Source of the DNA: Lachnospiraceae bacterium
GTDB taxonomy: Bacteria; Bacillota; Clostridia; Lachnospirales; Lachnospiraceae
Direction: 5' to 3'
DNA: 46,545 nt
Assembly (NCBI GenBank): GCA_017620255.1
Contig: JAFZQU010000008.1
Coordinates: 1 to 46,545, forward strand
This document shows, piece by piece, positions 19,496-42,622 of this stretch. The notes under the pieces are model-generated. The model was not told where the DNA came from and did not search any database. It saw only the letters and a list, made by a program, of their open reading frames with translations. Every line of letters begins with the position of its first letter. Positions within the stretch are counted from its first letter, which is position 1. The translations under genes were made by a program, and so were the position numbers.

Positions 19496-19869
19496 TGCAT
19501 CCTGAAAAGCGAAAGTGCGGTAGCAGGGTGCAATTTTTTGTCATGAAAGGAGCCAATCACCTTCCGGAAATGCGAAAACTGCATCCTGCGAGGCGAAAGT
19601 GCGGTAGCAGGGTGAATTCTCTTCACCCTGAAAGGCAGAAATCACTGTCCGGGTGCACGAAAACTGCATCCTGCGAGGCGAAAACATGGTAGCAGGGTGA
19701 ATTTTCAAGCCTTGGAAGGGAGAAATCACTGAGCGGGAGTACGAAAACTGCATCCTGCGAGGCGAAAACACGGTGGCGGGGTGCAATTTCAAGCCATGGA
19801 AGGGAGAAATCACTGTCCGGGTGCACGAAAACTGCATCCTGCGACACGAAAGTGCGGTAGCAGGGTGAA
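19496..19869. repeat. Family A inverted-repeat array, five elements (A1)
   Basis: Five 37-nt elements start at 19496, 19580, 19665, 19749 and 19833. Each is TGCATCCTG, exactly 19 nt, then CAGGGTGMA (one copy CGGGGTGCA); arms pair with one G-T. The interior consensus is close to CGAGGCGAAAGTGCGGTAG. Starts are 84-85 bp apart (eight helical turns), and the 47-48 nt spacers resemble one another, ending in CACGAAAAC. A weaker element (TTCACCCTG at 19622) lies midway, 42 bp on. Open frames that cross the array on the minus strand merely translate the repeats. Confidence 0.85.
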
Positions 19870-19882
19870 TTTTTGCTTCTTC

Positions 19883-20207
19883 TTACCTACTAAAATGGCT
19901 CGATCAAGCTGCCGGTAGGCAGGCCGAAATTTTCCTTCGGAACAAATGCATACCAAAACGCGCCGGAGCGTACCCTGGTAGGCATTTTTTCATTCTGAAA
20001 ACGGATCCGCGACTCGGTTTCTAAGAAATCCGGTCTTTTTCTACCTACCAACGAAGAAGAATTGTCGGTGCGGTAGGTATTATGGATTTTTCGGTTCGCA
20101 TTCGATACCTACGGGCGGAGTTGTTTTTCCTCTGTGGTAGGTATGCGCGCGATTTGCTTCCTTGACGATACCTACCGGTCACGTGATCCTGCGCATCCGG
20201 CAGGTAG
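19883..20207. repeat. Family B inverted-repeat array, five elements
   Basis: Elements of 40 nt start at 19883, 19946, 20041, 20105 and 20168. Left arms resemble ATACCTACC and right arms GGTAGGTAT, always separated by exactly 22 nt of unrelated sequence; the left arm of the second and right arm of the fifth match the consensus at 7 of 9 positions. Starts are 63, 95, 64 and 63 bp apart. The array directly follows array A1 in an 850-bp gap with no gene. Confidence 0.8.
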
Positions 20208-20280
20208 ACGAAAGCGGATTTGAAGTGTATATTGTATGAGTGGTCTAAGCGGCCATAAGAAACATGAGAGGAGTACACAC

Positions 20281-20970
20281 ATGAAAACACAAAGCAGAAA
20301 TGAATTGAAAAAGCGCATCGCCCTTTTGTGCGTAACGGCGCTGTCCGGCACATTGCTTGCAGGCTGTGGTGCTTCGAATGTTCAGGAGGCTCCGGCAATA
20401 TCCATCGACCAGACAGAGGAAGCCGGTGCGCAGGAGGCAGGCGTAGAACCGGAAGCATCCACCGGTGCGCAGGAAGAAGAACCGCAGGTCGGGATGGCCA
20501 ATCCCTGGGTGGAGATCACGGAAGACGAGGCAAAAGCGGAATGCACGCGGCTGTTTAAGGCACCGGATGGCGCAACGGATCCGGTGTGGCGTAAATGTGA
20601 TTCGCTCGGGGATCCGGAAAACTTCGTGGGACCGCTTGTGCAGCTGAATTTCACGCTGGATGGAATGGACTTTACCGCAAGGGCGCAGCAGGGAGCTTCC
20701 GAAGAAGATGACATCTCCGGGATCTACGCCGAATGGGCAGCAGGGCCGGATGATGTGACCCTGGCAAACTGGGGTGAAGGACATATGAGCGGCAAGACTT
20801 ACCGCGCGATCGACGAAACGGAATACACGGATCTCATCACATGGTATGACATAGAGATCGGGATCAAGTATTCGCTCTCCGTATCGGCACCGGATCTCGA
20901 TGGATTCGATATCCAGGCAATCGCCGAGCAAATGTATGATCCCGATAATGAGCCCTACACCGGGCCCTGA
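20281..20970 (+). CDS. Secreted lipoprotein, unknown function
   Basis: A 229-residue protein with a lipoprotein signal ending in lipobox LLAGC (Cys at residue 24) and an acidic, Ala/Glu-rich linker. The mature part begins at NPWVEITEDEAKAECTRLFK and has no domain I can name; it lacks the Asp-rich D-x-DGD pattern of the other lipoproteins. The start at 20281 has GAGAGGAG about 9 nt upstream and gives the signal peptide; the earlier in-frame ATG at 20236 does not. It runs convergently to the large CAP protein gene with only 18 bp between the stop codons. Confidence 0.75.
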   Translation: MKTQSRNELKKRIALLCVTALSGTLLAGCGASNVQEAPAISIDQTEEAGAQEAGVEPEASTGAQEEEPQVGMANPWVEITEDEAKAECTRLFKAPDGATDPVWRKCDSLGDPENFVGPLVQLNFTLDGMDFTARAQQGASEEDDISGIYAEWAAGPDDVTLANWGEGHMSGKTYRAIDETEYTDLITWYDIEIGIKYSLSVSAPDLDGFDIQAIAEQMYDPDNEPYTGP

Positions 20971-20988
20971 TCTCAATTCACACAAACC

Positions 20989-23900
20989 CTAGTGAAACAG
21001 CAGCTTCAACAGCGAAAGGATCCTGCCCCCGATGCGGAAGGTGACTTTCGCTGTTCCTGCATAATCGCCAAGGCCGCGGATCATGACGGAGGCATTGCCC
21101 ATGTTGACATTGCTTACGTAGGTGCCTTCGATGATCTCGTAGTCGGTCCCGTACGTGAGCGGAACCGCATTCCTTCCGGCGCCGGCCGTAACGATGGAAA
21201 CCGTTTCACCGTTTTTCACTGCGTAAAAATCACTCTCCGAAAGGTATACCGCCTCCCCTGTATATTCCTTCAGAATGGAACCGACCTTAACACTGCTGAG
21301 AGGTGTTTTGCCGATCAGATAATTGGAAAGCCGCGCTGCGCCGCCATCGTAAACGCCAAGGCCACGGATCTTCACTTCGATCACGGTGCCGGGCGTATTC
21401 ACAACACTCTTTTTATCCAGCATCTGCGAGGTTTTGTCCGGGTAATAAGCTTTGTAGGAAACGACCGCATAGTCCTTTCCTTCCTTGAGCGTCTTGCCGT
21501 TCGTATCGTATAAAACAGGCTTGGAAATGTAAGCGCCGGCTTTGGCCGAAGCGGTCTTGTCCGGGATCACGATCTTGACGTTATTCAGGGAAGAAGGCAG
21601 TATCTTAAATTCCTTTGTGATGCTGCCCTTGAAATCTCCTTTGCCGGTGATCGTGAAAGACGGGTTTTTCTTTACGGATGCAGTGGTCACAACTGTATTT
21701 GCCGCATATTTTACGGCAAGATCGCTTCCTTCATACATTCTCCGTCCATTCCAAAATGCTTTCACGGAAGGCGTTGTGCCGCCTGCCGTGTAAACTGCTT
21801 CAACCGTATTCGCATCATTCTTCAGGGCCGCAGTCGATTCAAATGCGGTCTCATTCACGCGATAGCTCATGAGCAGATCCGTAGAAATATCCACCGGAAG
21901 GATCTTAAAAGTCTTCTTTATACTTCCCGTGTATCCGCCGGCTCCCGTGATGGTCACGGCTGCCGTGCCGGCGTGGAAGTTATTGCTGTAGTTGACGGTA
22001 TAGTCCGTGCCACTCGTCAAAGGCGCGCTCTCCGGGGTCAGCCTTACGCTGAAATTCTGCGTTATGGCAGATCCGCTGAAATTCCTGTCCTGAATGCCGT
22101 CCACGAGCGCCTTGTTCAGCGCCGTACCCGTGATCTTAAACGTGACGCTCTTGCGGCCGCGGCTCTTGCCGTCGACCCCGCTGATCGTGACCGTAGCCGT
22201 GCCGACTTCTTTGTTGGCGGCGTAGGAAACAGCATAGTCCGTCCCGGGCGTCAGCGTTTCCGTTATGCCGTTCCGCTTCGCCGTGACTTTTAGCTGCTCC
22301 GAAGTAAGCGTGATCTCACTTCCCGTATAAGGTATGTTTGCGATCTTTGCGACCGTCGCCCGGCTCAGATCGACCAGCGTACTGTCATCGTAAATACGGA
22401 TCCGCGAGATCTTGGTGCCGGTATAATTGCCGGTACCTGTCAAAACGGCCTTGTAATCACCGGCCAGCCTGTAGGCACCGTCCACCGTATCCGGGAACGT
22501 GCAGGTAAAATCACGCCCCGATACAAGTTTGGTCTTTCCATCCATCACAGCCGGAATGCTCTGATGCAGCTTGTCATCTACCGCAAACCATTGGTCCGGC
22601 GCGTCCACGTCCGCAAGATCCACGGGAGCGATCGTGAAGAACAGGTTTGCCGTTCCGTTGTATTTCCCTTTTCCGGTCACCGTGACAAGCGGTGCCAGGG
22701 AAGCGTCAAATGCAGGATCTTCTTCTGTGTAGGTGTAAGCTTTCACATTGTTTTTGAAGGTGAGCGTATAGTCCGTTTTCTCTTTCAGCGGTACGCCGCC
22801 TGCAAAAACGCGGATCTCCGGTTTCACAGCCTTGCCCGTGAATACCGGTTCGGAAGTGGTCTCTGCGGAAAAATCAACCGCCGTGTCCGCCTTTGCCCGG
22901 TAATAAGCGTATATATCGAACTGATTGGTCGCGATGGTACTCTGCGTGACTTTATCACCCTTACCGTCAGGGAGCGTGTACCAGCCGACGAAAGAGAGTC
23001 CGCCGGGGACGTCAGGCGTATACAGATGGGTACCAAACGGCTCGCCATATGTAGCAGAGATATCGCTACCCACATCTGATCCGTTCATGATCTTATGGTG
23101 CAGTTTGGCTGTTGAGAAAATACGAACGGGGATCTCTTTTGTGATCCCGTCGGCCGTGAGCGTAACGCTTGTTGTGCCTGGGACTTTTGCCGTGAGCGCG
23201 ATGCGGCCGTCTTCATCTGTAGCCGAAAGCATAGCCGCATTGTTGCTTTTTACGGTAAGCGATTCGATCCTGGCATCTGCCGGGATCAGCGTATATCCGA
23301 TCTCTGCCGTCTGGTTCAGGAACAGGCGGACCTCTGTCTCGGAAAGGGTTATATCAGACAGTTTGTTAAAGACAGTCACCTTGCAGGTCGCGCTCAGTTT
23401 GTCTGCTTTGGCTGTGATCGTGGCTGTGCCTTTGGCGTTCGCCGTGATCTTTCCTTCCTGATCTACGGAAGCGATGTTTGCGTTGCTGCTGCTCCAGATG
23501 ATCTCCGGACGCACGGTCGCATCCAGAGGCTCAAACGAAGGATGCAGGGCCAGCTCTTTGCCAACGATCATCTCGGCAGTGGTCCGGTCGAGTCTGATGG
23601 CCGTGACGGGAATGGATTTTGTGATCTGATCGACTTTGAAGCCGTATCCGCCGCCGGTCACGGAGATGAGACGGATCTGGACCGTCCTGCCGCTTACGGT
23701 CAAGGTCTTGCCGGAAAGCTGGTCAGAGGTGTATTCGCCGATCATTTTGCTTTTGCCGTCATAGACGCGGATCTTGTCGGAACCGCTTAACATCGTGTCA
23801 GTGGAAAAAGCAATGTCAATGCCCTGCGCATTTTCAGGGCATGTGTAGACCCAGCTCAGATCCTTCCCGGCTTCGTACGGATGTGCGGACTGCAGGTCTT

Positions 23901-25245
23901 CCACGGATGTGACCACGTTGGTAAAATCAGGCGCGCTCGCAGCAGCCGCCGCGGTTTCAAAAACGACCGGATAGCGGATGGAAGTCGCATTGCCGCTACT
24001 GTCTTTGATACCGGTGATCGTAACGAGGTAAACGCCTCTGTAAGAGCCTGCGTTTGACGGGCGGAAGATGATACAGTTACTGATCCCGTATGACTGATTA
24101 TCAACATGAAAATATCCGGCATTTGAACCGGAATAGAGATTCCATACCTTCCCGCTCGTCAGGCTTTCCAGGGTAACCTTCACAGCTGCCGCGGACGGAC
24201 TCTGGTACATGTTGGGGTTCAGGGTAACAGACCAGGGGATACTGGCCGTGAAGCGGTTCGAAAGGTTGTTGCCGGAAGCAGGCCATGCGATAAAATCATA
24301 ATCATTGAGGGTTTCATCTTGGGCGGTATTCAGCCCGAACACCTTTACATCCGTGTAACTTTGGCCGGCACTGTCCGTGGCGGAGCCGACACCGAACGTG
24401 GTCTTCCAAGGATGCAAAAGCCATCGTCTGTGCCCTAAGCAGGAGAGGTTGTTGCCGCTCTCATCCGCCATCTGACCGGTGATGGCAAGACCCAGGATCG
24501 TGCTTTCTTCGTATCCCCAGCAGTAGGAAATGTTGCTGGTGCGTGTGGCCTCACGTCCTCTTTCATAATCTACATCAGAGATATAGGCCGGCCTGTTGGG
24601 GTAGTGGCTGAAATGCTGCGCCATTGCCATGACCAGCGCCCCGTAGGCAGCGTCTGTGTTGGCATCACTGCCCAGTGTGATATTGCCAAGACCGGCATTG
24701 GTCCTATAGTAATTGATCAGCCGCGTCATATATGCATAGGCGTTGTCAGTCAGTTTGCCCGGTCTGTAGTTCTGGCCAAGGACCGGTGAGACACTGAATC
24801 TTGAAGAATAGCTGCCGATCGCCGCGTTCAGTGCTGCCAGTTCCTTCATGGAAAGCTTCGCGATGGAATCCCTTCCGGACCGGGTGCTGCTGACCGGAAC
24901 ATCCCCGTAAAGTTCCGGATCGAAAAATGTGTCCTCAACCGGCTCTTCTCCTGTCAGATAGGCATTGTCTCCGTCTTCACAAAGTGCCGGATCACCGTAT
25001 TCATAGAAGGGGTCGCCGTCGTACGTGTAACTGTATTCATCGTCATAGTTATATTCATTATCGTAGCCGTCAGCTCTATCGGAGCTGTCATGCAGATCCG
25101 CATCGGCAGCAGGCTCTTCCGGCTCCTCGTAAGATACGAAAGATGCATCGGCGGCTTCCTCCGCATAGACCGGAAGCATTCCGCCAAAGACGCTTGTTGC
25201 GAAAACGGCAGTGATGAGTGCGATACTGACGATCCGTTTCTTCAT
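20989..25245 (-). CDS. Large secreted CAP/CUB/Big repeat protein
   Basis: A 1418-residue exported protein. It has a Sec signal peptide (residues 1-29, ending MLPVYA), then a Tyr/Asp/Glu-rich low-complexity stretch to about 115. Residues about 165-320 are a CAP/SCP domain (AYMTRLINYYRTNAGL, AMAQHFSHYP, CLGHRRWLLHP). About 445-540 resembles a CUB domain (WVYTCPENAQGIDIAF, IRVYDG, SVTGGGYGFKV). Two Big-2-like immunoglobulin domains follow (ITWSSSN-type IIWSSSNANIASVD), then an InlB/Listeria-Bacteroides-type repeat (FVGWYTLPDGKGDKV), then about five 100-residue beta repeats containing VTGKGKYNGT-like motifs. There is no LPXTG or membrane anchor at the C-terminus. Strong AGAAGGAGAA precedes the start. 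It is probably a surface or matrix adhesin. Confidence 0.85.
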   Translation of the reverse strand: MKKRIVSIALITAVFATSVFGGMLPVYAEEAADASFVSYEEPEEPAADADLHDSSDRADGYDNEYNYDDEYSYTYDGDPFYEYGDPALCEDGDNAYLTGEEPVEDTFFDPELYGDVPVSSTRSGRDSIAKLSMKELAALNAAIGSYSSRFSVSPVLGQNYRPGKLTDNAYAYMTRLINYYRTNAGLGNITLGSDANTDAAYGALVMAMAQHFSHYPNRPAYISDVDYERGREATRTSNISYCWGYEESTILGLAITGQMADESGNNLSCLGHRRWLLHPWKTTFGVGSATDSAGQSYTDVKVFGLNTAQDETLNDYDFIAWPASGNNLSNRFTASIPWSVTLNPNMYQSPSAAAVKVTLESLTSGKVWNLYSGSNAGYFHVDNQSYGISNCIIFRPSNAGSYRGVYLVTITGIKDSSGNATSIRYPVVFETAAAAASAPDFTNVVTSVEDLQSAHPYEAGKDLSWVYTCPENAQGIDIAFSTDTMLSGSDKIRVYDGKSKMIGEYTSDQLSGKTLTVSGRTVQIRLISVTGGGYGFKVDQITKSIPVTAIRLDRTTAEMIVGKELALHPSFEPLDATVRPEIIWSSSNANIASVDQEGKITANAKGTATITAKADKLSATCKVTVFNKLSDITLSETEVRLFLNQTAEIGYTLIPADARIESLTVKSNNAAMLSATDEDGRIALTAKVPGTTSVTLTADGITKEIPVRIFSTAKLHHKIMNGSDVGSDISATYGEPFGTHLYTPDVPGGLSFVGWYTLPDGKGDKVTQSTIATNQFDIYAYYRAKADTAVDFSAETTSEPVFTGKAVKPEIRVFAGGVPLKEKTDYTLTFKNNVKAYTYTEEDPAFDASLAPLVTVTGKGKYNGTANLFFTIAPVDLADVDAPDQWFAVDDKLHQSIPAVMDGKTKLVSGRDFTCTFPDTVDGAYRLAGDYKAVLTGTGNYTGTKISRIRIYDDSTLVDLSRATVAKIANIPYTGSEITLTSEQLKVTAKRNGITETLTPGTDYAVSYAANKEVGTATVTISGVDGKSRGRKSVTFKITGTALNKALVDGIQDRNFSGSAITQNFSVRLTPESAPLTSGTDYTVNYSNNFHAGTAAVTITGAGGYTGSIKKTFKILPVDISTDLLMSYRVNETAFESTAALKNDANTVEAVYTAGGTTPSVKAFWNGRRMYEGSDLAVKYAANTVVTTASVKKNPSFTITGKGDFKGSITKEFKILPSSLNNVKIVIPDKTASAKAGAYISKPVLYDTNGKTLKEGKDYAVVSYKAYYPDKTSQMLDKKSVVNTPGTVIEVKIRGLGVYDGGAARLSNYLIGKTPLSSVKVGSILKEYTGEAVYLSESDFYAVKNGETVSIVTAGAGRNAVPLTYGTDYEIIEGTYVSNVNMGNASVMIRGLGDYAGTAKVTFRIGGRILSLLKLLFH

Positions 25246-25312
25246 ATCTGGTTCTCCTTCTGCATATTATTAAGATATTTTACCACAAAGCGGGCAAAGG
25301 GGGCAAAATGGG

Positions 25313-25346
25313 TGTGACATGCGCGTTTATGTGATATACTGTCGAT
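25313..25346 (+). promoter_or_regulatory. Promoter placing the start codon at the predicted transcript start
   Basis: TATACT (25335-25340) ends 6 nt before the ATG at 25347, with a TGTGAC/GTGACA -35-like hexamer at 25313-25319. No Shine-Dalgarno sequence exists between them, so the mRNA is probably leaderless. Confidence 0.5.
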
Positions 25347-27197
25347 ATGTATTACAATATTTCCTTTGACATTGCAGCGATCCTGTTACTCATCGTGATC
25401 GCGGTCGGCATGAAAACCGTTCTGTATACGGATACGCCGGGGCACAAGCTCGTGCGCCGCTATGTGTATGTCGTGATCGGGTATGCCGTGATCGACATGA
25501 TCACTGCCTACACGATCAGTTACGCGGAAATGGTGCCGGATCCGCTCAATCTCATATTGAATTCGCTCTATCAGTATTCGGCGGTCTTTACGGTGGCTGT
25601 GGCCATGCGGACGATCCTGAATTATTATCCGAGTGCGTCCAAAACCTCCGTGATGATCAACAGGATCCTGATATATCTGCAGGCCCTGCTTGTAACGGTA
25701 AACCTGTTTACCGGCTGTCTGTTCCGGTTTGAAAACGGTGTCTACCTGCACGGCCCCATCTTCTATGTAGCTTATGCATTGCCGCTCGCGACGGTTTTCC
25801 ATATGCTCTACGTTGCGATCGTAAACCGCGGCGACAGACCGGGAGTCATATCGAGGATCATCCTTTTGTTCCTGTTTTTGCCGACGATCTTTACGGGGAT
25901 CCAGATGATCCTGGGAAATGTTCTGCTCATCGCATTTGGTGAAGCGTTTTCCGCGCTCATCATGCTCTTCGCGCTTGAAACGCCCGACTACCGCAAACTC
26001 ATGAAGACGATGAACGAACTCGAGATCGCCCGGGAAGAAGCGAATATCGCCAATCGGACGAAGAGTGATTTTCTCGCAAGTATGTCCCATGAGATCCGGA
26101 CGCCGATCAACGGCATCCTCGGGATGAACACGATGATCCTGCGCGACAGCAAAGATCCGCAGATCGTCGAATATGCCGAAAATATAAGGATCGCGGGCAA
26201 CGGCCTGCTGTCGATCATCAATGATATCCTGGATCTTTCCAAGATCGAATCCGGCAGGACGGAACTCCTGCCCGCCAATTACGAACTGTTCTCGATCCTG
26301 AACGACTGCTATCAGATGAACCGGATGCGCGCGACGGAAAAAGGGCTTTCGTTCCTGATCGAAAACGATCCGGACATGCCGGCCGGCTACTATGGCGACG
26401 AGGTCCGCATCCGCCAGATCATGAACAACCTGGTCTCAAACGGCATCAAGTACACGAAGGAGGGCAGCGTTACGCTGCAAGTCGGGTTTGCAGCCGGCAC
26501 CCTTACGATCTCCGTCACGGACACCGGCATCGGTATCAAAGACGAGGACCTCGACAATCTCTTCAAGAGTTTCACGCGTCTCGAAGAGAGCAGGAACCGC
26601 CACATCGAAGGGACCGGGCTAGGCCTGCATATCACGAAGCAGCTCGTGAACATGATGAACGGCACGATCGAAGTGGAAAGCGAGTACGGCAAAGGTTCGA
26701 CCTTCACGGTCAGAATTCCGCAGAAGGTCACGGATCAAAGGCCCATGGGTGATTTTGCCGCAAGACAGAAAGAACATGTCAACCTCGAAGCGGGCCGGAC
26801 GAGCACTTTCAAGGCGCCCGGCAGAAAGGTGCTCATTGTCGACGACGTGAAGATGAACGTGCTCGTGTTCAAGGGGCTGCTGCGCGGGACGGAGATGACG
26901 ATCGACAGCGCACTTTCCGGCGCCGAAGGGATCGAAATGACGCAAAGATCCAAATACGACATCATCTTCATGGATCATCTCATGCCTGAAATGGACGGGA
27001 TCGAGGCGTTCCACAGGATCAGGGAAGATAAGGACAATCCGAACCACGATACGCCGGTCGTCGTGCTGACGGCGAACGCGATCGTGGGCATGCGCAATAC
27101 ATATCTGGAAGAAGGGTTTGCCGAGTATATCAGCAAGCCGGTCGAGCAGCAGGAACTGCTGACGGTGACCGGGAAACTGCTGGGAGATACGGATTAG
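25347..27197 (+). CDS. Hybrid sensor histidine kinase with response receiver
   Basis: A 616-residue membrane kinase. About six or seven hydrophobic segments fill residues 1-210, without a large outside domain. A short coiled linker (ELEIAREEANIANRTKSDFLA) leads to the phosphoacceptor MSHEIRTPINGILG (His about 249). The ATPase domain shows the N box QIMNNLVSNGIKYT, G1 DTGIGI and G2 GTGLGLHI. The receiver (about 495-615) has VDD, phosphoacceptor Asp in FMDHLMPEMDG, LTANA and SKP. It has no DNA-binding output, so phosphate must pass to an Hpt or regulator elsewhere. It lacks a ribosome binding site. A paralogous kinase follows after 54 bp. Confidence 0.92.
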   Translation: MYYNISFDIAAILLLIVIAVGMKTVLYTDTPGHKLVRRYVYVVIGYAVIDMITAYTISYAEMVPDPLNLILNSLYQYSAVFTVAVAMRTILNYYPSASKTSVMINRILIYLQALLVTVNLFTGCLFRFENGVYLHGPIFYVAYALPLATVFHMLYVAIVNRGDRPGVISRIILLFLFLPTIFTGIQMILGNVLLIAFGEAFSALIMLFALETPDYRKLMKTMNELEIAREEANIANRTKSDFLASMSHEIRTPINGILGMNTMILRDSKDPQIVEYAENIRIAGNGLLSIINDILDLSKIESGRTELLPANYELFSILNDCYQMNRMRATEKGLSFLIENDPDMPAGYYGDEVRIRQIMNNLVSNGIKYTKEGSVTLQVGFAAGTLTISVTDTGIGIKDEDLDNLFKSFTRLEESRNRHIEGTGLGLHITKQLVNMMNGTIEVESEYGKGSTFTVRIPQKVTDQRPMGDFAARQKEHVNLEAGRTSTFKAPGRKVLIVDDVKMNVLVFKGLLRGTEMTIDSALSGAEGIEMTQRSKYDIIFMDHLMPEMDGIEAFHRIREDKDNPNHDTPVVVLTANAIVGMRNTYLEEGFAEYISKPVEQQELLTVTGKLLGDTD

Positions 27198-31654: not shown

Positions 31655-32122
31655 TGCACCCTGCGAGATGAAAATGTAGCGTCGGGGTGCATTTTTGGTT
31701 CATTGTGGGAGAGCGCGAAGGCGTAAGTGCATCCCGATGAGTGAAAGTGCAACTCCAGGGTGAAGCGTGCGTGGGGATATTTCACCCTGAGAGGCGAAAA
31801 TGTGATGCCGGGGTGAACGATCTTGATGGGGTGAGTGAGCAATTTCACCCTGAGAGGCGAAAATGAAGCGTCAGGGTGAAAAATAAGATCGGAGCAAACG
31901 GGAGATTTCATCCTGAAGGGCTAAAGTGTGTCAGCAGGGTGAAAGTGGGGAAAAATGAATGCACCCTGAGAAGCGAAAATGCGGTGTCAGGGTGAAAAAA
32001 CTGAACGCGGCAAAAGAGAAGTTTCACCCCGGGACGGAAAAATGCGGCATTAGGGTGAAAAGTGCGGGAGGAGCGAGTGAAAGAGTTCACCCCAGGAAGC
32101 GAAAACATGAATCCAGGGTGCA
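31655..32122. repeat. Family A inverted-repeat array, eight elements (A2)
   Basis: Eight 37-nt elements start at 31655, 31728, 31781, 31844, 31907, 31960, 32023 and 32086. Each is TKCAYCCYG (one copy ends CCCA), exactly 19 nt, then NRGGGTGMA. The interior consensus is AGAGGCGAAAATGNNGNNN, with GAAA conserved in most. Start-to-start steps are 73, 53, 63, 63, 53, 63 and 63 bp; the spacers between elements are 36, 16, 26, 26, 16, 26 and 26 nt. The 654-bp gap between genes at 31570 and 32225 holds nothing else recognisable. Confidence 0.88.
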
Positions 32123-32881: not shown

Positions 32882-32890
32882 TTCCGTAAT

Positions 32891-35266: not shown

Positions 35267-35300
35267 TTTTCACGCGGTTTTTTTGATGTATAATACAGCC
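35267..35300 (+). promoter_or_regulatory. Promoter of a probably leaderless LytTR gene
   Basis: TATAAT (35289-35294) ends 6 nt before the ATG at 35301, with TTTTCA (35267-35272) at 16 nt spacing. There is no Shine-Dalgarno sequence, so transcription should begin at or next to the start codon. Confidence 0.55.
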
Positions 35301-35756
35301 ATGAACAACTTGAAGGTCAAAATTGAGATCGACCCCGCGGCAACGGATTGTGAAGTCACGATCAGATGCGCGGGCGTCAACGAAGAAGTGGTGAGGATCC
35401 AGAAGCTGCTGTCCGAAAGTGCTGCAGAGCTCTCGCACATCAGTTTCTATAAAGAGGACTCCGAGTATTTCCTGCCGCTTGGCGAGATCTTGTTTTTCGA
35501 AACGGATGGCGGTCTGATCAGGGCCCATACCGCAACGGACGAATTCGAGACAAAATACAAGCTGTACGAGCTGGAGGAAAGACTTCCGTCCTATTTCTTA
35601 AGGATCTCCAAATCCACGATCCTCAATACCCACAAACTCTATTCCATCACCAAAAACCTGGCGGGTGCCAGCAAGGTGGAGTTTCAGGGGACCTACAAAA
35701 CGGTATATTGTTCGCGAAACTACTATAAAGCACTGAAAGAAATACTGGCGCCCTGA
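35301..35756 (+). CDS. LytTR-family DNA-binding regulator
   Basis: A 151-residue protein with a free-standing LytTR DNA-binding domain in residues about 48-148 (PLGEILFFETDGG, YKLYELEERLPSYFLRISKSTILNTHKL, and the C-terminal RNYYKALKEIL). The first 45 residues form a small domain without a receiver, so it is not a two-component response regulator. It precedes a LiaF-like membrane protein by 22 bp, a pairing often seen in Firmicutes, where the regulator controls the membrane partner and envelope stress genes. The start at 35301 is the ATG right after the -10 element. Confidence 0.9.
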   Translation: MNNLKVKIEIDPAATDCEVTIRCAGVNEEVVRIQKLLSESAAELSHISFYKEDSEYFLPLGEILFFETDGGLIRAHTATDEFETKYKLYELEERLPSYFLRISKSTILNTHKLYSITKNLAGASKVEFQGTYKTVYCSRNYYKALKEILAP

Positions 35757-35778
35757 CGCGTCATAGAGGAGAGATAAG

Positions 35779-36531: not shown

Positions 36532-36538
36532 GAAAAAA

Positions 36539-37927
36539 TCATTCCCCCGCCGCTTCTGCATCCAGGATCCGCTGATGCAGATCGCGCCAGAACGGAATAA
36601 AACAGATGATCGCGACGGTCATGGAAACTATGTCGGCGATGGGCGTTGCCCATGCGATCCCGGTGATACCAACGAGATGGTTCATCAGGAACATCGCAGG
36701 TACGTCCACGCCGCCTTTTCTTAATACGGAAAGAATGAGCGGCGTCATCTTCCGGCCCGTGGACTGGAACATCGTGATGATGACCATGGAAACGGGGATG
36801 AAAGGACCCGTCACACAGATGATGCGCTGGAACAGACTGCCGTAAACGACGGTCTTCTGGTCGTTGATGAACGCCCTTACGATCATCGGTGCCTGTGTCA
36901 GCAGGAAAGCCGTGCTGACAACGGCAATGGCAATGCTGATGACAACGGTGGTCTTTACCGCGGACATCATGCGTTTGTAGTTTTTGGAAGAATAGTTGTA
37001 GCCGATCAGCGGGATCACACCCTGCGACATACCGGTCGCCACGGCGTAGGTCAGAAGGTCGACTTTCTTGGCGATCCCGATCCCTGCGACCGCCGCATTG
37101 CTGTAAGAAGACATCAGGCGGTTCATGAAGATGTTGGAAAGAACGCCCGAGAGATTCATGACGGCGCTCGGCAGCCCGACAAGCATGATCTCGGAAGGCA
37201 GCCCGCTACGCAGTGTGAAATATCGCGGATGCATGGACAGCACCATATGCGCGCGTTTCCGGTAGATCAGAATGATAAAATACAGGGTAGCTGCGATGTT
37301 TGACAGCAGGGTTGCGACCGCAGCGCCCGTGATCTCCATATGCAGACCGGAAATGAAGAGCGGATCCAGCAGGATGTTCAGGATCCCGCCCATGGCCACG
37401 CCAAAGCTGGCCTGTTTGGAATAACCTTCCGCCCTGACCAGATGCGCAAACGTACCGCTTAAGACTGTCGGGATCGCACCGCAGGTGATCACCCAGAGTG
37501 AATACCGGTTGCAAAGATCGATCGTTGCCTTGTCGGCTCCCACCAGAGGGAAAAGACGGAACCGGAAAAGATACACCAGAACACCATAGAGAAGTGCGAT
37601 AAAGCCGCCCGCCCAGATACTGAACGCGGAGGCTTTTTTTGCCTGTTCCGTATCACCCTTCCCGAGCGAGCGGGAGATCAGGCTGGCGCCGCCGATGCCG
37701 AACAGGTTAGCCATGCCGGTGAGCAGCATGAAAACAGGCAGGCAGATCGAAGTTGCCGCCACCTGATCCGGATCACCGACCTGCCCGATAAAGTAGGTGT
37801 CGGCCATATTGTATACGACTGTGATCAGCTGGCTGATGACAGTGGGGATCTCCAAAGCAAGCACGGCCTTTAAGACCGGCGCGGATTCAAACAGTTGTTT
37901 CTTATCTTCATTGACGAATGTTTTCAT
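36539..37927 (-). CDS. MATE-family multidrug/Na+ efflux transporter
   Basis: A 462-residue protein with twelve hydrophobic segments and family motifs (PTVISQLITVVYNMADTYFI, GIGGASLISRSLGKGD, GVIPLIGYNYSSKN), a cation-coupled exporter of the MATE family (MepA/DinF type). The start at 37927 (MKTFVNEDKK) was chosen because it gives the normal N-terminus; the open frame continues to 38053 without one. No Shine-Dalgarno sequence lies upstream, but TTGACA (37959-37964, minus strand) does. It converges with the LiaF-like gene, only 7 bp apart, with no visible terminator. Confidence 0.92.
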   Translation of the reverse strand: MKTFVNEDKKQLFESAPVLKAVLALEIPTVISQLITVVYNMADTYFIGQVGDPDQVAATSICLPVFMLLTGMANLFGIGGASLISRSLGKGDTEQAKKASAFSIWAGGFIALLYGVLVYLFRFRLFPLVGADKATIDLCNRYSLWVITCGAIPTVLSGTFAHLVRAEGYSKQASFGVAMGGILNILLDPLFISGLHMEITGAAVATLLSNIAATLYFIILIYRKRAHMVLSMHPRYFTLRSGLPSEIMLVGLPSAVMNLSGVLSNIFMNRLMSSYSNAAVAGIGIAKKVDLLTYAVATGMSQGVIPLIGYNYSSKNYKRMMSAVKTTVVISIAIAVVSTAFLLTQAPMIVRAFINDQKTVVYGSLFQRIICVTGPFIPVSMVIITMFQSTGRKMTPLILSVLRKGGVDVPAMFLMNHLVGITGIAWATPIADIVSMTVAIICFIPFWRDLHQRILDAEAAGE

Positions 37928-38058
37928 ATTAAAAGTTTTAATCTGTATTGATGCGGCTGTCAAGTTTGTGACAGCCCATCCGGCGCCTGCGGTCCGCACA
38001 TTGAATCCGGGGAGCGTCATACGGTATAATGTGTATGGTATATGAAGGTTCACTCCAT

Positions 38059-38359
38059 TTTACATGTAGTTTTAGAAGGAAATCGCTGAGCGATTACGTG
38101 TAAAAATCCGATAGCCGGCAATTTCACACGTAGTTTTAGAAGGAAATCGCTGAGCGACTACGTGAAAAAACCCGATAGCCGACCATTTTACACGTAGTGT
38201 CAAGCTGAAAATAAGAAATAACTACGTGTGAAATCATGGATTCCGTCAAATCTACACGTAGTCGATCAGAAAAATGGTCAGAATACTACGTGTAAAAAAT
38301 GCAAAAAGCCGGATCTTACACGTAAGCAGGAAATAAGATCAGAAGCAGCCATGTGAAAA
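38059..38359. repeat. Family C inverted-repeat array, five elements (C1)
   Basis: Elements start at 38059, 38123, 38187, 38251 and 38315, a constant 64 bp. Each is an arm like TTTACACGTAG, 24 nt, then an arm like CTACGTGTAAA (46 nt in all; the fifth is degenerate with 23 nt), separated by 18-nt spacers. Interiors of elements one and two are almost identical; those of three to five are unrelated. The array fills most of the 496-bp gap between the MATE and hydrolase genes. Confidence 0.9.
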
Positions 38360-38423
38360 GGAATACATTTAACATATAGAATATAGAATATAGAATATGC
38401 AAGGATAAGGGAGGCTTGTTTCC

Positions 38424-39227
38424 ATGCAGATCACGATCGAAAAGGTTCATACGGAGACATTTTCCATGCCGTTTTTCCGCTTCGGACACGGTAACAGGAC
38501 GCTTGTGATGTTACCGGGGCTAAGTGTGCAGAGCGTGATGGGCGCGGCGTCTGCCGTGGAAAGCGCCTACAAAATACTGGAGGATGATTTTACCGTTTAT
38601 CTGTTTGAATACCGCGAAGAACTGCCGTACCCTTACAGTATCCGGGACATGGCAAAGGACGCAGCCACGGCGATGCAGACGCTGGGGCTTTCCGATGTCT
38701 GCCTGTTTGGCGTATCTCTTGGCGGCATGGTTGCCATGGAAGTCGCGCTCCTTTATCCGGAACTGGTAAAAACCATGGTGCTTGGGTCCACATCGGCCAA
38801 TGTAGAGGGACGGTATAGCGTTCTGGAACACTGGATCAGGCTTGCAAAGCAGAATGATGCAACGGGACTGTATCTTGACTTCGGGGAAAAAGTCTATCCG
38901 CCCGCCGTATTTAAACAGTGCCGTGACATGCTGGTCTCTGCCGCGGAAACGGTTACGGAAGAGGAACTCGCGCATTTTGTCGTGTTGGCGGAAGGAGCGC
39001 ACGGATTTAACGTGCTCGATGAGCTGGACGGGATCCATTGCCCGGTCCTGACGATCGGTGACAAAACGGACGCGGTGCTTGGCAAAGAGGCATCCGAAAA
39101 GATCGCGGAAAAACTGAAAGACAAGCCCGGCTGCAGTCTGTACATGTATGACGGATACGGGCATGCGGCCTACGATACGGCACCGGATTACAAAGAAAGG
39201 ATTCGGGAGTTCTTTTGTAAGTACTGA
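38424..39227 (+). CDS. Alpha/beta-fold hydrolase
   Basis: A 267-residue cytoplasmic hydrolase with the full catalytic set: nucleophile elbow GVSLGG (Ser about 97), Asp in GDKTDAVLG (about 212) and His in GYGHAAYD (about 243); the early LPGLSVQS provides the oxyanion hole. The length matches simple esterase/lipase-like members. A GGGAGG site lies upstream. It heads a run of three plus-strand genes with pgeF and surE; the substrate is unknown. Confidence 0.85.
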   Translation: MQITIEKVHTETFSMPFFRFGHGNRTLVMLPGLSVQSVMGAASAVESAYKILEDDFTVYLFEYREELPYPYSIRDMAKDAATAMQTLGLSDVCLFGVSLGGMVAMEVALLYPELVKTMVLGSTSANVEGRYSVLEHWIRLAKQNDATGLYLDFGEKVYPPAVFKQCRDMLVSAAETVTEEELAHFVVLAEGAHGFNVLDELDGIHCPVLTIGDKTDAVLGKEASEKIAEKLKDKPGCSLYMYDGYGHAAYDTAPDYKERIREFFCKY

Positions 39228-39272
39228 CGGCGGTGCGGATCCGGTGACCTGTTTTGAAGAAGGGGCAACAGT

Positions 39273-40079
39273 ATGGCTGTAGAAGATAAGAGCGTAAAAA
39301 GTGCATATGAGAAAGTTGAGCCGGTAAGATCAGCACTGATCCGCTGTCCGCACGGGTTCTCGACGAGGACCGGCGGCGTGAGCGAGGGGATCTATGCTTC
39401 GCTGAATCTTGGCATGAACCGCGGCGACGATCCGGAAAAGGTCAGGGAAAACTTCCGCAGATTCCTGGATGCCTGCGGGATCAGGGAAACTGCGTTTGTC
39501 TGCGGGAAGCAGGTACATGAAAATCACGTGATGACGGTTGGCAGGGAACACGCCGGAGAACCCTACGGCTACGAGGAACTTTTCGTCGCGGACGGATACG
39601 TGACGGCGGAAAAGAACGTGCCGCTTGTGATCTTTACGGCGGATTGTATTCCGCTGCTGATGGCGGACGAACAGGCGGGTGTTGTGGCTGCGGTGCACAG
39701 CGGCTGGCGGAGCACCGTCCTTGATATCGAGAAAAATGCGGTAGAGGCCATGACGGCGCTTGGCGCCAAGCGGGAAAACATCAAAGCCTGTATCGGGCCT
39801 GCGATCGGGCAGTGCTGTTTTGAAGTGGGGCCTGAGGTCATCGAAGGCGTGGATGCGCTGCTTGACGGCAACGCAGCAGACCTTTACAGGGGCAAGGCAA
39901 ACGGAAAATTCATGCTGGACTTAAAAGGCGTTGTGAAGCGCAGCATGATCAGAACCGGGCTTCTCGAACACAATATTGATGTGATCGCTGACTGCACGAT
40001 GTGCATGCCGGAAAAATACTGGTCGCACCGCATGATCGGAAGCGGGCGCGGAAGCCAGGCGGCCGTGATCATGTTGTAG
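39273..40079 (+). CDS. pgeF: Peptidoglycan editing factor PgeF (YfiH/laccase-domain family)
   Basis: A 268-residue member of the multicopper-polyphenol-oxidase-like (DUF152/YfiH) family, now known to remove misplaced serine from UDP-MurNAc peptides or to act on purine nucleosides. Marks include HGFSTRTGGVSEGIYASLNLG, QVHENHV (metal His), TADCIPLL (Cys) and VAAVHSGWRST (His), plus IGPAIGQCCFEVG and the closing GSGRGSQA. The ATG at 39273 follows AGAAGGGG. The next small gene starts 105 bp further on from its own promoter. Confidence 0.92.
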   Translation: MAVEDKSVKSAYEKVEPVRSALIRCPHGFSTRTGGVSEGIYASLNLGMNRGDDPEKVRENFRRFLDACGIRETAFVCGKQVHENHVMTVGREHAGEPYGYEELFVADGYVTAEKNVPLVIFTADCIPLLMADEQAGVVAAVHSGWRSTVLDIEKNAVEAMTALGAKRENIKACIGPAIGQCCFEVGPEVIEGVDALLDGNAADLYRGKANGKFMLDLKGVVKRSMIRTGLLEHNIDVIADCTMCMPEKYWSHRMIGSGRGSQAAVIML

Positions 40080-40112
40080 AAACAGTTTGGTGAAAAGAAA
40101 AAATTATTTAGG

Positions 40113-40141
40113 TTTCAGATAAGGAGGAAGCGTGCTATAAT
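40113..40141 (+). promoter_or_regulatory. Candidate promoter of the small gene/surE operon
   Basis: TATAAT (40136-40141) is a consensus -10; TTTCAG (40113-40118) at 17 nt is a weak -35. It lies 43 bp before the start at 40185. An AAGGAGGAAG upstream of it at 40121-40130 has no following gene. Confidence 0.5.
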
Positions 40142-40184
40142 AAATTTGCAGGGCAGTAAATGCACTGCAAGGTGGGAGGAGAGT

Positions 40185-40358
40185 ATGAGTAATCAGGACA
40201 AAAGAGCTGTGGAATCCATGTGCAGGTGCGGACTTGATTTTGACGGAGTCTGTGCCTGTTTTTCTTCATTCCCGAAGGAGGACATCCTGGAGATCTACAC
40301 GCGGATCCAGAAATATCTGCCGAAGCGCAGGGAAAATTCCACAAAGGGTAACGCATGA
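40185..40358 (+). CDS. Small Cys-containing protein, unknown function
   Basis: A 57-residue protein with CRCGLDFDGVCACF (three or four Cys near residue 12-24), then a short helix (EDILEIYTRIQKYL) and a basic tail. GGGAGGAG lies just before the ATG, and the gene overlaps surE by ATGA, so it is very likely translated. The cysteine cluster could bind a metal; no family was recognised. Confidence 0.75.
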   Translation: MSNQDKRAVESMCRCGLDFDGVCACFSSFPKEDILEIYTRIQKYLPKRRENSTKGNA

Positions 40359-41065
40359 GAATTCTTTTAACGAATGATGACGGGATCGGTGCAGACGGGC
40401 TGGTCCGGCTTGCAGCGGCCGCAAAGGCTTTGGGTGAAGTCTATGTGGTGGCGCCGGATGTCCAGCGAAGCGCTGCTTCCCATAGTGTGACACTCAGGCA
40501 TCCGGTGGAAGCCTGGGAGGTTGATTTTCCCGTAGAAAATGTACATGCGTATGCAACGACCGGTCTGCCGGCTGACTGCGTGCGGGTTGGCGTGCTGAAC
40601 ATCATGCGCGGCAAGGTTGACCATGTTTTCACGGGGATCAATGACGGGTACAATGTCGCGACGGACCTGCAGTATTCTGCCACGGCCGGGGCGGCTTTTG
40701 AAGCGTCTTTTCAGAAGATCCATACGATCGCTTTTTCCGAGGACAAGGCAACGAGGCACGCGGTCACGGACCGGTACCTGTTTGAGATCATGCAGAATCT
40801 GCTGGATAAGCCACTCGGATACGGGCAGATCTGGAATGTGAATTTCCCAAGCTGCGAACTATCCGACTGCAAAGGCGTTCTCTACGACCGCACAGTCTCG
40901 CGCGACGAATTCTATACGGACCGCTACACCGAGACAAAGCTGCCAAACGGGCGCATGTCCTACATGGTGGACGGGCGGCGGATCTTTTCCGGCACCGAAG
41001 GGACGGACCTGCACGCCGTGATAAACAATTATGTGTCCGTCGGGATCGCAACGAATATATCATAA
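40355..41065 (+). CDS. surE: 5'-nucleotidase SurE
   Basis: A 236-residue metal-dependent nucleotidase acting on nucleoside monophosphates. The N-terminus MRILLTNDDGIGADGL gives the two metal-binding Asp residues (8 and 9), ASHSVTL the metal-binding Ser, and FTGINDGYNV the Asn/Asp ligand. Length is within the family range (about 230-260). It is translationally coupled to the small gene before it and is followed by a strong terminator. Confidence 0.95.
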   Translation: MRILLTNDDGIGADGLVRLAAAAKALGEVYVVAPDVQRSAASHSVTLRHPVEAWEVDFPVENVHAYATTGLPADCVRVGVLNIMRGKVDHVFTGINDGYNVATDLQYSATAGAAFEASFQKIHTIAFSEDKATRHAVTDRYLFEIMQNLLDKPLGYGQIWNVNFPSCELSDCKGVLYDRTVSRDEFYTDRYTETKLPNGRMSYMVDGRRIFSGTEGTDLHAVINNYVSVGIATNIS

Positions 41066-41070
41066 AAAAT

Positions 41071-41097
41071 GAGGTCACCTCAGAAGGTGACCTCTTT
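41071..41097. terminator. Bidirectional terminator after surE
   Basis: GAGGTCACCT (41071-41080) and AGGTGACCTC (41085-41094) form a perfect 10-bp stem with a CAGA loop, flanked by AAAAAAT on the left and TTTCATTATTTTATTT on the right. It serves surE and the minus-strand gene ending at 41119. Confidence 0.92.
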
Positions 41098-41118
41098 CAT
41101 TATTTTATTTCTGTGATC

Positions 41119-41376
41119 TTACAGGCTGGGATCCTTCAGAACATGAAGCAGATCCTCAAGCGGAACATCCTTGAAGTATGCTTCCGGATTCGGGCCCGTG
41201 TAACTCCACTTGTTACGGAACACCTGCCACTGTGCAGCAGTAAAGGTGTAGCTCTTACCGTTCTTGTCGGTGAAATAAACGTTTCCTGCCTGATCGGTAG
41301 GAAAACCGGCGTCGGTCGCACCACCACTTACTTTTGTGAGTTCGTCATCGTTTAATAAATTCTTCTGATCAGCCAT
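41119..41376 (-). CDS. Double-glycine-leader secreted peptide precursor
   Basis: An 85-residue peptide. The first 19 residues, MADQKNLLNDDELTKVSGG, form a bacteriocin-type leader with the E-L-x-x-V-x-G-G cleavage motif used by peptidase-containing ABC exporters. The remaining 66 residues are acidic and aromatic (TDAGFPTDQAGNVYFTD, WQVFRNKWSY) with no Cys, so this is not a lanthipeptide core. AAAAGGAGAGG is a strong ribosome binding site. No exporter, maturation enzyme or immunity gene adjoins it, so export must rely on genes elsewhere. It could be a class II bacteriocin-like, signalling or RiPP-type peptide. Confidence 0.8.
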   Translation of the reverse strand: MADQKNLLNDDELTKVSGGATDAGFPTDQAGNVYFTDKNGKSYTFTAAQWQVFRNKWSYTGPNPEAYFKDVPLEDLLHVLKDPSL

Positions 41377-41477
41377 GATTCCTCTCCTTTTTATATGCTA
41401 TGTGTTTGGCCACGAACGGCTCTATTTATTTATACGAAAAAATCGGAAAAAAGACAACTTTTTTTTCAATCATTCGA

Positions 41478-42281
41478 TCAGAGCAGTAATTTCTCTATCA
41501 GGATACGTATTTCTTTCGTATGGATGGCTTCCTGCGCGGATTCAAATGTCATGATCAGGTTTTCTCCCGCAATGTACCCGTTCTGCTGATAACAGTGGAT
41601 CTTGGCAATGCACTTATTGACATAGCCCATTTGATCCATCATTCCAAAGTGTTCCCAGACGAATTCCTTACCTGTCCTTACGTTCAGGCAAGTGAAATCA
41701 GGCCGGATCTGACCTAAACCATCTAAATAGAGCGGTTTTTCATATTTGAAAGGAATATGATACTTTTCCAGCTGGTTAGCGATCAGGATCTCTGATTTTG
41801 ACCTGACCCGGATCCCTCCATCTGAATAAAACTCCGAATTTTCATAAAACGGCATCGGCTCGTAGACTGCTTCCATCCATTTCTCCGCATACAGTTCTCC
41901 CGGTAAAACAACCGGGTTGATAAGCGTTTTCCTTGCCTGTGCCATCTTCGCGTATTCCTGCGCGATCCCCCCGATATCATAATGCGATAGAAACAGATGA
42001 AGATTCTCCCGAAGACGGGTGAGTTTTCTTAGCAGATCCCGCTCATACTCCCGCTGTGCGACCCTGCGAAGCGTATCTGTTTCCTTTTTCTTTACATAGC
42101 TGCGTTTCTTCGTTACCCTGTCGACCCAATAATACTGATCACATCCGTTGCTCCTGCTAACATGGATCCCGCAGTCCGGCAGACCTTTCGTCTTCGCGGC
42201 CCGGGTATTTAATTTGGCGATCAGTTCGTCAACCTGCTTTAATTGTGCTTCCAACTTTTCCCGATGATCTTCAAAAAACAT
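41478..42281 (-). CDS. PD-(D/E)XK nuclease-like protein
   Basis: A 267-residue protein. Residues 1-30 and 75-105 look helical (coiled-coil-like); residues about 155-235 carry a restriction-endonuclease-like pattern, RSKSEILIANQLE, then RPDFTCLNV and EFVWEHFGMMD, with the Glu, Asp and Glu expected for the metal site, followed by IHCYQQNGYIAGENLIMTFES. Similar stand-alone proteins are common in Lachnospiraceae, with unknown roles. AGAAGGAGG precedes the start. Upstream, only 12 bp from its start (42294 onward), begins the expected frame of family C array C2. Confidence 0.6.
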   Translation of the reverse strand: MFFEDHREKLEAQLKQVDELIAKLNTRAAKTKGLPDCGIHVSRSNGCDQYYWVDRVTKKRSYVKKKETDTLRRVAQREYERDLLRKLTRLRENLHLFLSHYDIGGIAQEYAKMAQARKTLINPVVLPGELYAEKWMEAVYEPMPFYENSEFYSDGGIRVRSKSEILIANQLEKYHIPFKYEKPLYLDGLGQIRPDFTCLNVRTGKEFVWEHFGMMDQMGYVNKCIAKIHCYQQNGYIAGENLIMTFESAQEAIHTKEIRILIEKLLL

Positions 42282-42328
42282 TTTTCCTCCTTCTGCTTTT
42301 TTGCAACACCATTACCTGTTTCAACAAT

Positions 42329-42622
42329 TTACGTGTACCTTCAGTAAAAATCACGGAAACACACGTAGTTTTTCGTAGTTTCGCGCGTGCGGCTACGTGT
42401 GAATCTTTCATGGATTTCAATTTACACGTAGTTTTCCGTAGCTTCGCGTATGCGGCTACGTGTAAAAATGACTTATCTTATTTGTTTACACGTAGGACAT
42501 GACGATAATGCATCAAAAACTACGTGTAAAATTGACGTATCTTATTTGTTCACACGTAGGCCATTGCAGTGGTACGTTAAAAACTACGTGTGAAATGACT
42601 TACGCTGTCTGTTTACACGTAG
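42329..42622. repeat. Family C inverted-repeat array, four whole elements and two halves (C2)
   Basis: Complete 46-nt elements start at 42358, 42421, 42485 and 42549; each has arms like TTTACACGTAG and CTACGTGTAAA exactly 24 nt apart. A lone left arm at 42612 and a lone right arm at 42329 (TTACGTGTACC) sit where the 63-64 bp period predicts. Spacers are 17-18 nt. Interiors of the first two are related (TTTTCGTAG-like), the others not. The 576-bp gap between the nuclease-like gene and tRNA-Arg holds only this array and the tRNA promoter. Confidence 0.9.

Follow-up and report, generated by a model that had tools for sequence, protein, structure and literature searches.

Relationship to described repeat systems

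In RAYT (TnpA-REP) systems, one gene adjoins extragenic repeats of alternating orientation (REP, BIME, or REPIN), and the cognate repeats are dispersed, covary with the protein, and evolve fast, according to published reports (PMC2817692, PMC3116915, PMC8049555, PMC3733652, PMC8266576). The window analyzed here, 46,545 nucleotides of contig JAFZQU010000008.1 from a Lachnospiraceae bacterium, resembles those accounts in that a gene adjoins cognate, alternately oriented repeats that are also dispersed, covary with the protein, and evolve fast, but the enzyme half of its protein is PD-(D/E)XK-like rather than Y1. REPs are palindromes of 20 to 40 bp processed as single strands, whereas the half-sites here are ~9 bp, with gaps of ~10 to 50 bp in B-DNA phase. 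A GTAG (or CGTC) tag adjoins the palindrome in REPs, but no constant GTAG tag is present here: GTAG/CTAC occurs in 4 of 48 half-site consensuses, against 1.5 expected from shuffles, and in the window the B and C half-sites contain GTAG while A does not. Membership of REP/RAYT was rejected because no Y1 (HUH) transposase (PF01797) was found in the genome at an E value of ≤0.001 by a search that was positive in 5/14 control genomes.

Two other comparisons are relevant. The PADLOC candidate PDC-S68 (~1200 aa) has a homologous nuclease half (best E value of 8e-27 for the window protein), whereas the family described here has members of ~270 aa with another N-terminal half and a link to arrays. Iterons, parS/parC sites, and operator arrays are phased arrays of protein sites adjoining the gene of the binding protein, but the sites here alternate in orientation and are dispersed, and one half of the protein is nuclease-like. 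The literature searched contained no paper describing an array and protein system of this kind.

Architecture of the arrays

A pattern scan of the window recovered 13 A elements (arms of 9, a gap of exactly 19, and ≤2 arm mismatches), four B elements, and seven C elements (≤3 mismatches). Inspection located a further B element at 19883, the first C2 element at ~42358, a degenerate fifth C1 element at ~38315-38359, and a C2 half element at 42612. With these B and C elements added to the scan matches, the original prediction's totals of 13 (A), 5 (B), and 9 (C) are correct, and the start-to-start distances that it gave were recovered by the scan (Table 1). No gene called by a simple custom script overlaps any of the five arrays. 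A finder of alternating inverted 9-mers, with the arm sequence left free, detected every array, with chain lengths of 10, 6, 11, 9, and 10, and one further chain (length 4, at 4461) that is at background level; the longest chain in 100 Markov-shuffled chunks was also of length 4, found once. Rfam covariance models at gathering score matched only five tRNAs in the window and nothing over any array, and the arrays were rejected as a known Rfam RNA on this basis.

Table 1. Arrays and associated features in the window
Feature	Position	Strand	Description
A1 array, dispersed copy of A system	19496..19869		5 elements, period 84-85
B array	19883..20207		Half-site ATACCTACC/GGTAGGTAT; 5 elements with partial decay; partner gene not found; possible relic
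A2 array, dispersed copy of A system	31655..32122		8 elements, start distances 73, 53, 63, 63, 53, 63, 63
C1 array, dispersed copy	38059..38359		5 elements (fifth degenerate); flanked by divergent MatE and alpha/beta-hydrolase genes
267-aa protein of C system	41478..42281	-	Weak DUF6788-like stretch in N-terminal half (sub-threshold); PD-(D/E)XK-like C-terminal half
C2 array (home array)	42329..42623		10 half-sites (ACACGTAG/CTACGTGT) in alternation at intervals of 31-32 bp; lies 47 bp upstream of start codon of gene 41478-42281(-)
Promoter-like site TTGACA-17-TATATT	42723..42751	-	11/12 match, upstream of C2 array

The elements had been described as three families of fixed-geometry palindromes. 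The elements themselves stand, but isolated palindromes are not the unit: the gap between C elements is also ~24 bp, and the C array is therefore a regular alternation of half-sites. Isolated palindromes 64 bp apart were rejected as the unit of C, the 8-mers ACACGTAG/CTACGTGT alternating every 31-33 bp. Half-sites in A are 28 bp apart within an element and 25, 35, 45, or 56 bp apart between elements. The arrays are better described as half-sites of 8-9 bp whose orientation alternates approximately every three helical turns. There are three half-site types but not of equal standing, as a partner gene adjoins one A and one C array and none was found for B, whose array may be a relic.

Helical phasing

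Among 48 distinct half-sites, the modal period deviated from a multiple of 10.5 by no more than 1.5 bp in 45 and by no more than 1.0 bp in 35 (Rayleigh P of ~5e-15 for the phase of the 48 modal periods), and array periods were mostly 5, 6, 7, or 8 turns of B-DNA. Ten arrays contained several periods, which were whole turns apart in nine. The best repeat was 10.55 bp when whole turns were required (mean cosine of 0.83, with 0.82 at 10.5 and 0.05 at 11.0); when this condition was dropped, the period vector peaked flatly at 10.75-11.0 (0.85), versus 0.83 at 10.5. Gaps between elements were phased as well as those within elements. The predicted helical phasing is thus borne out across different half-sites, with a fit to B-DNA if whole turns are required, and such phasing implies that the sites are probably read as double-stranded DNA on one face of the helix.

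A role at the RNA level, in which a transcribed leader array would fold into hairpins bound or processed by the protein, is very improbable. Home arrays do lie in a likely leader, and spacer self-complementarity is slightly above that of shuffles (means of -0.44 ± 0.13 kcal/mol for 47 spacer classes and -0.29 ± 0.17 kcal/mol for 38), which would also suit a folded strand. Against it, a whole-turn requirement makes the periods agree with B-DNA rather than with 11 bp per turn, phasing extends to the gaps between elements, and dispersed arrays sit between divergent, convergent, and co-directional genes.

Association of arrays with one gene family

In the genomes compared, arrays are strongly concentrated beside genes of one protein family relative to other places, usually immediately 5' of the gene. 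Arrays of five or more half-sites were present at 75 of 125 homolog loci, compared with 2/80 control windows from six of the same genomes and 0/250 shuffles (Fisher P = 2e-19), and in both array-positive control windows the half-site resembled one from a gene-side array of the same genome. The array was 5' of the gene in 63 of the 75 array-bearing loci, and such loci came from 34 of 43 genomes. By the same criterion, 50 loci lacked an array, including 7 of the 8 in one genome (G031). The 125 loci represent 123 genes (two G031 genes were seen twice). Of at least ~150 homolog matches, 30 loci and 80 more from the upper part of the list were used, and 15 loci came from another search; the selection omitted hits already included, two that had internal stops, a small number of others, and matches scoring lower. 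L071, with an internal stop, and L082, which is short, were dropped from the array-bearing loci in the analysis that gave this Fisher test and the comparison of N-terminal halves with half-sites. C-type arrays also occurred on six named MAG contigs: two stretches (L059 and L057) contain the gene beside or between arrays, and the other four show no gene, the stretches being short.

This association, together with the phasing, led to rejection of tandem duplication as the sole cause. Passive duplication of unrelated palindromes and nothing else would agree with adjacent units often being near-identical, but the geometry is of one kind across 48 distinct half-sites adjoining a single gene family, and neither the one-turn jumps nor the excess at homolog loci is explained by it. 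We give it almost no credence, and the original prediction had likewise considered simple tandem duplication insufficient for the mixed A2 spacings.

Promoter-like sites of the kind listed in Table 1 numbered three in the stretch, against 1.7 expected. The one upstream of C2 would place that array in the leader of the gene, and the order promoter-like site, array, gene was found in 14 of the 18 loci having such a site (63 loci examined).

Partner protein and half-site specificity

One paralog of the window protein was found in the genome, adjoining an A array, and both seem to belong to a single, apparently undescribed family with a variable N-terminal half and a PD-(D/E)XK-like C-terminal half. 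The original prediction had overlooked the partner gene adjoining the array. Alignment places SKSE164, PDF194-196, EH210-211, and K227 in the C-terminal half of the window protein, and SKSE, PDF, and EHxG are jointly present in 116/124 homologs. The K of (D/E)xK is off its usual +2 place in the family alignment and may be replaced by the invariant K227. PDB sequences gave no convincing match to the protein, and the N-terminal half had no significant family match in Pfam, NCBIfam, PHROGs, or PDB sequences. The window protein falls outside DUF6788 (PF20586), scoring 14.1 bits against a Pfam cut-off of 27.2; weak likeness of the N-terminal half was seen in 3/16 members (best E value of 0.053, below the cut-off), and a literature search found no paper mentioning DUF6788.

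Relatives on viral contigs (L198-L205) have the nuclease half alone in common, most of them lying in long frames where a P-loop was recognized by eye, and plasmid relatives carry the annotation AAA family ATPase. Seven viral loci carry one A-like match each, which may be due to chance.

Among close relatives, the half-site tracks the N-terminal half and not the C-terminal half. All nine pairs with N-terminal identity of ≥0.7 have a common half-site, and a Mantel test of N-terminal identity versus half-site gave 0 of 1000; the overall correlation is weak (Spearman coefficient of 0.11) and visible among close pairs only. L057 and L059 have the C half-site in common with the window protein at only ~36% protein identity. 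At one syntenic locus (L098/L101), the array and N-terminal half were exchanged jointly: the half-sites are unrelated and N-terminal identity is 0.51, with C-terminal identity at 0.97. Because the array and N-terminal half are adjacent, a single recombination event could have exchanged them with no functional link between them.

Such a specificity swap would also be expected of a defense or competition system, in which a sequence-specific nuclease is sequestered or gated by chromosomal arrays and its specificity diversifies through exchange of cassettes, as happens with restriction specificity subunits. The many paralogs per genome with different half-sites point the same way, as do matches of the C-terminal half to the PADLOC candidates PDC-S68 and HEAT_CxxC_PDDEXK (4/4 proteins scanned) and PDC-S69 (3/4). 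These matches, however, cover the nuclease half, the sites are accumulated rather than avoided, and the C array pattern had no match in viral contigs, with no sign, as judged from that pattern, of a phage origin. We consider a defensive role improbable.

Dispersal, turnover, and conservation

Copies of the arrays are scattered through intergenic DNA of the same genome. C elements numbered 52 (≤2 mismatches) at ≥16 loci and A elements 36 (≤3 mismatches) at 7 loci among the places listed; a strict B pattern had a single match, which lies in the window. None of 17 dispersed-array stretches examined contains a homolog of the gene. Neither gene nor arrays were found in a sister species (G010), where the corresponding operon junction has no array and shows no clean boundary or target duplication; a further search for a clean insertion boundary, which had no positive control, found nothing. 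Array length can differ greatly, with 12 versus 38 half-sites at one orthologous locus.

Arms were unchanged in the home array (0/144, compared with 22/253 changed spacer positions), whereas dispersed arms were no better conserved than spacers (5/113 versus 9/189; two cases compared). These figures use array registers alone and replace a count including stray sites, which showed no difference (36/419 versus 337/4547; P = 0.38). C loci were clustered (28 same-contig pairs versus 3.3 expected with contig sizes averaged), but A loci were not, and the near-complete genome G290 has three scattered loci of the tested system by the strict pattern. A macrodomain or partition site was rejected on this distribution, and the nucleoid or partition role originally suggested is not supported, given the few G290 loci and the lack of extra conservation in dispersed arms.

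An autoregulated DNA-binding regulator or nucleoid factor, with arrays as operators or silencing tracts, a nuclease fold used for binding only, and dispersed arrays kept for control of neighboring genes, is the strongest of the alternatives, although we regard it as unlikely. It would account for phase-locked sites, home arrays behind a promoter-like site, the conservation of home-array arms, and the position of C1 between divergent genes. It fits poorly with the lack of extra conservation in dispersed arms, the retention of catalytic-type residues in most homologs, and the fast turnover in array length, and the neighbors examined show no apparent common function (the Pfam search covered the window's neighbors only).

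Proposed mechanism

The explanation that we favor, and consider reasonably probable, is that the palindromes are cognate DNA sites of the protein family and that the system operates in the manner of a RAYT/REP-BIME pair but with another enzyme. The N-terminal half would bind the half-site, and proteins bound along an array would lie on the same side of the helix and form pairs or oligomers. Binding to the home array, between promoter and gene, would limit the protein's own expression, and the nuclease-like C-terminal half would nick or cut at arrays, repair of the breaks lengthening, shortening, or copying them to other intergenic positions. The dispersed arrays would be passengers without autonomy and would decay after loss of the gene, a fate that seems to have befallen B.

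More tentatively, these may be a new class of genome-shaping element: diversifying nucleases that each read their own phased array, swap array and reading domain as a cassette, and copy the array intergenically, a REP-like system reinvented with a PD-(D/E)XK enzyme and double-stranded, face-of-helix recognition. The association ties an unexplained repeat class of gut and rumen bacteria to a single protein family that lacks annotation. The natural protein/half-site pairs, of which there are dozens, and a natural swap provide a ready-made recognition code. The system also adds a second, unrelated case of how bacterial genomes gain populations of extragenic palindromes.

Spacers and array ends

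Inner spacers were alike across loci, with 44/1155 pairs at ≥70% identity and none in shuffled sequences, which favors dispersal; this likeness could also reflect functional constraint. A central A-tract in spacers reached P ≤ 0.05 in 13/48 arrays (better of two classes) and is suggestive only. A distinct end unit was found in 10/16 terminal versus 1/36 internal positions, in a test chosen after inspection.

Arrays of alternating half-sites

The 27 palindromic elements of the original prediction, assigned to families A, B, and C, are real. None lies inside a called gene, and an alternating-repeat finder with shuffled controls indicated that they are not due to chance. Along the C arrays, two 8-mers, ACACGTAG and CTACGTGT, follow each other in alternation, one every 31 to 33 bp, and this step is the same within and between the elements first delimited, making an array of alternately inverted half-sites the natural unit. 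The window is contig C11 of a 2.93-Mb genome (G000) containing 52 C elements (≤2 mismatches; 16 loci among the places listed) and 36 A elements (≤3 mismatches; 7 loci among the places listed); the strict B pattern has a single match, inside the window. C-array loci are bunched on few contigs (C25, C27, and C11 noted), with 28 same-contig pairs versus 3.3 expected, and A-array loci show no such bunching. Contigs C7, C25, and C33 begin within or shortly before arrays, which may therefore break assembly.

The same C arrays occur on six further named contigs, from five Lachnospiraceae MAGs and one Pseudobutyrivibrio MAG; 40 relatives contained no exact C match. These relatives gave 22 A-like matches, each with three mismatches and spread over 13 genomes, versus nine for a reversed control of the A pattern, with no array among the places listed.

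A protein family adjoining the arrays

Listing the genes that adjoin arrays identified a partner gene beside C2 (see table). Similar proteins of ~270 aa without a Pfam family are encoded next to an A array on contig C33 of the same genome and, in a different species, next to a C array (L059); in L057, also from another species, the partner gene sits between two C arrays. The members beside C2 and on C33 were the only two found in the window genome, and the gene was not seen in the other four named C-array stretches (1.8 to 8 kb long). In an alignment of 16 homologs, the N-terminal half is variable and the C-terminal half carries invariant or nearly invariant SKSE, PDF, and EHxG motifs, found together in 116 of 124 homologs. 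The C-terminal half matches the PADLOC candidate PDC-S68 (E = 8e-27) and is the only part held in common with relatives on viral contigs and with three plasmid proteins annotated as AAA family ATPases. Most PDC-S68 relatives on viral contigs (L198 to L205) are long frames with a P-loop, ending in the same nuclease-like half. An unverified 4.2-kb faecal scaffold filed under phages bears a nearly full-length homolog and no array.

Coordinates of the partner gene and of additional repeats
Feature	Stretch	Position	Strand	Context
Partner protein, ~270 aa, no Pfam family	Window	41478–42281	Minus	Adjoins C2
Palindromic stretch ATCCTGTATCGCAGATACAGGAT, present twice	Window	43178–43281		Between tRNA genes
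Short tandem repeat (GTTCTATTCCGTTTG-like)	L193	1021–1080		Adjoins C array in dpp operon
Second, unrelated array, half-site ATTACCACG	L056	3986–4328		Spacings 32/41 and 32/51; MAG also carries a C-type array

In an order sample with up to eight candidates scored per genome, the family was present in 50 of 295 genomes (E ≤ 1e-15), often as several paralogs. A phylum sample (398 genomes; E ≤ 1e-30) contained full-length members in five genomes, all from the window's own bacterial family, and two further matches to the C-terminal half within longer frames. An arm-agnostic finder (alternating 9-mers, one mismatch, 18 to 62 bp apart) was applied to 125 homolog loci, representing 123 genes from 43 genomes, and detected arrays of at least five half-sites at 75 of them, in 34 genomes. 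Two Markov shuffles per locus yielded 10 chains of four and none of five. Eighty control windows (20 stretches, six of the same genomes) contained two arrays, both with a half-site resembling that of a gene-side array in their own genome. Arrays lie 5′ of the gene in 63 of 75 cases, mostly at <300 bp, and on the 3′ side in 12. The other 50 loci, including seven of eight in G031 (a genome from another family), have no array of at least five half-sites; array-less G031 paralogs may have lost the array or use another geometry. Five of six G031 paralogs noted individually (L074, L077, L079 to L081, and L082) are without a detectable array.

A promoter-like site (11/12) is located upstream of C2, where such scans would return 1.7 sites by chance, and would place the array in the leader of the partner gene. 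Among the 63 loci with upstream arrays, 18 have a site scoring at least 10/12; the best site precedes the array at 14 of these loci, falls within it at three, and lies between array and gene at one. The natural reading is autoregulation through a bound array.

Helical phase

The proposed 10.5-bp phasing of element spacings extends to the wider collection. The 75 arrays collapse to 48 nonredundant half-sites, with modal periods of 51 to 54, 62 to 65, 73 to 75, and 83 to 85 bp (44 and 108 stand apart). Forty-five of the 48 deviate from a whole multiple of 10.5 bp by no more than 1.5 bp (29% expected), the exceptions being 44, 65, and 108, and 35 by no more than 1.0 bp; among periods of >56 bp, 23 of 25 are within 1.5 bp. 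When whole turns are required, the fit is best at a helical repeat of 10.55 bp (mean cosine, 0.83, versus at most 0.47 in 2,000 null draws) and falls to 0.05 at 11.0 bp; when this condition is dropped, vector length peaks flatly at 10.75 to 11.0 bp (0.85 versus 0.83 at 10.5 bp). Ten arrays have several periods, differing by approximately whole turns in all except L147 (69 and 108). Of all the evidence, phase points most strongly to sites that are read as double-stranded DNA from one face; a slightly higher self-complementarity of spacers than of shuffled sequences argues against it.

Putative specificity of half-site reading

Among 73 array-bearing proteins, all nine pairs with N-terminal identity of ≥0.7 have a common half-site, compared with at most ~1% of pairs in any band below 0.5. 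Spearman correlations were 0.11 for the N-terminal and −0.02 for the C-terminal half, the latter without signal, and a Mantel test of the N-terminal half gave 0 of 1,000 permutations. Loci L098 and L101 have retained ~870 bp of upstream sequence (93%) and the gene from approximately residue 120 onward, while residues 1 to 119 and the intervening array are replaced. This pair is a natural exchange of the putative reading domain together with its array, but close linkage by itself could move both. Contrary to such specificity, L057 and L059 have the C half-site of the window protein at only ~36% identity.

Comparison with RAYT/REP

The nearest known system is RAYT with REP/BIME, for which published work describes alternating, regularly spaced repeats, flanking of the gene, covariation, and dispersal (PMC2817692, PMC3116915, and PMC8049555; further sources are PMC3733652 and PMC8266576). 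The array/protein system probably works like RAYT/REP, but membership was rejected: no Y1 transposase was found in the window genome, the putative enzyme half belongs to a different type, recognition would involve phased half-sites, and the GTAG tag of RAYT/REP is not general (4 of 48 half-sites). No description of the array/protein system was found in full-text literature whose coverage excludes most subscription papers and preprints.

Dispersed copies and array turnover

Arrays of one subfamily half-site, TTACTATCT (≤2 mismatches), occur at several places in G290, G211, G254, G142, and G182 and at a single place in G229, with none found in G242; 17 dispersed-array stretches contained no homolog of the six proteins tried. 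C arrays in the window genome share spacers between loci (44 of 1,155 pairs), and the end unit is distinct (10/16 versus 1/36, in a test chosen after inspection); both observations agree with a model in which whole arrays are copied and then undergo duplications within them. Between dppC and dppD, the window genome carries a 10-half-site array in a gap of ~510 bp, versus ~50 bp in the sister species (G010), where neither partner gene nor arrays were found; the edges of the putative insertion are not clean.

A comparison of G211 with G290 counted 0/144 arm and 22/253 spacer changes in the gene-side array, versus 5/113 and 9/189, respectively, in two dispersed arrays. By these small numbers, only the home array shows selection. 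The number of half-sites at one orthologous locus differs between the two species, at 12 versus 38. Composite arrays at orthologous places (L226, G211 contig C11; L227, G290 contig C1) join the related half-sites TTACTATCT and CTACTGCCT, with CTACTGCCT runs of 12 versus 38 half-sites.
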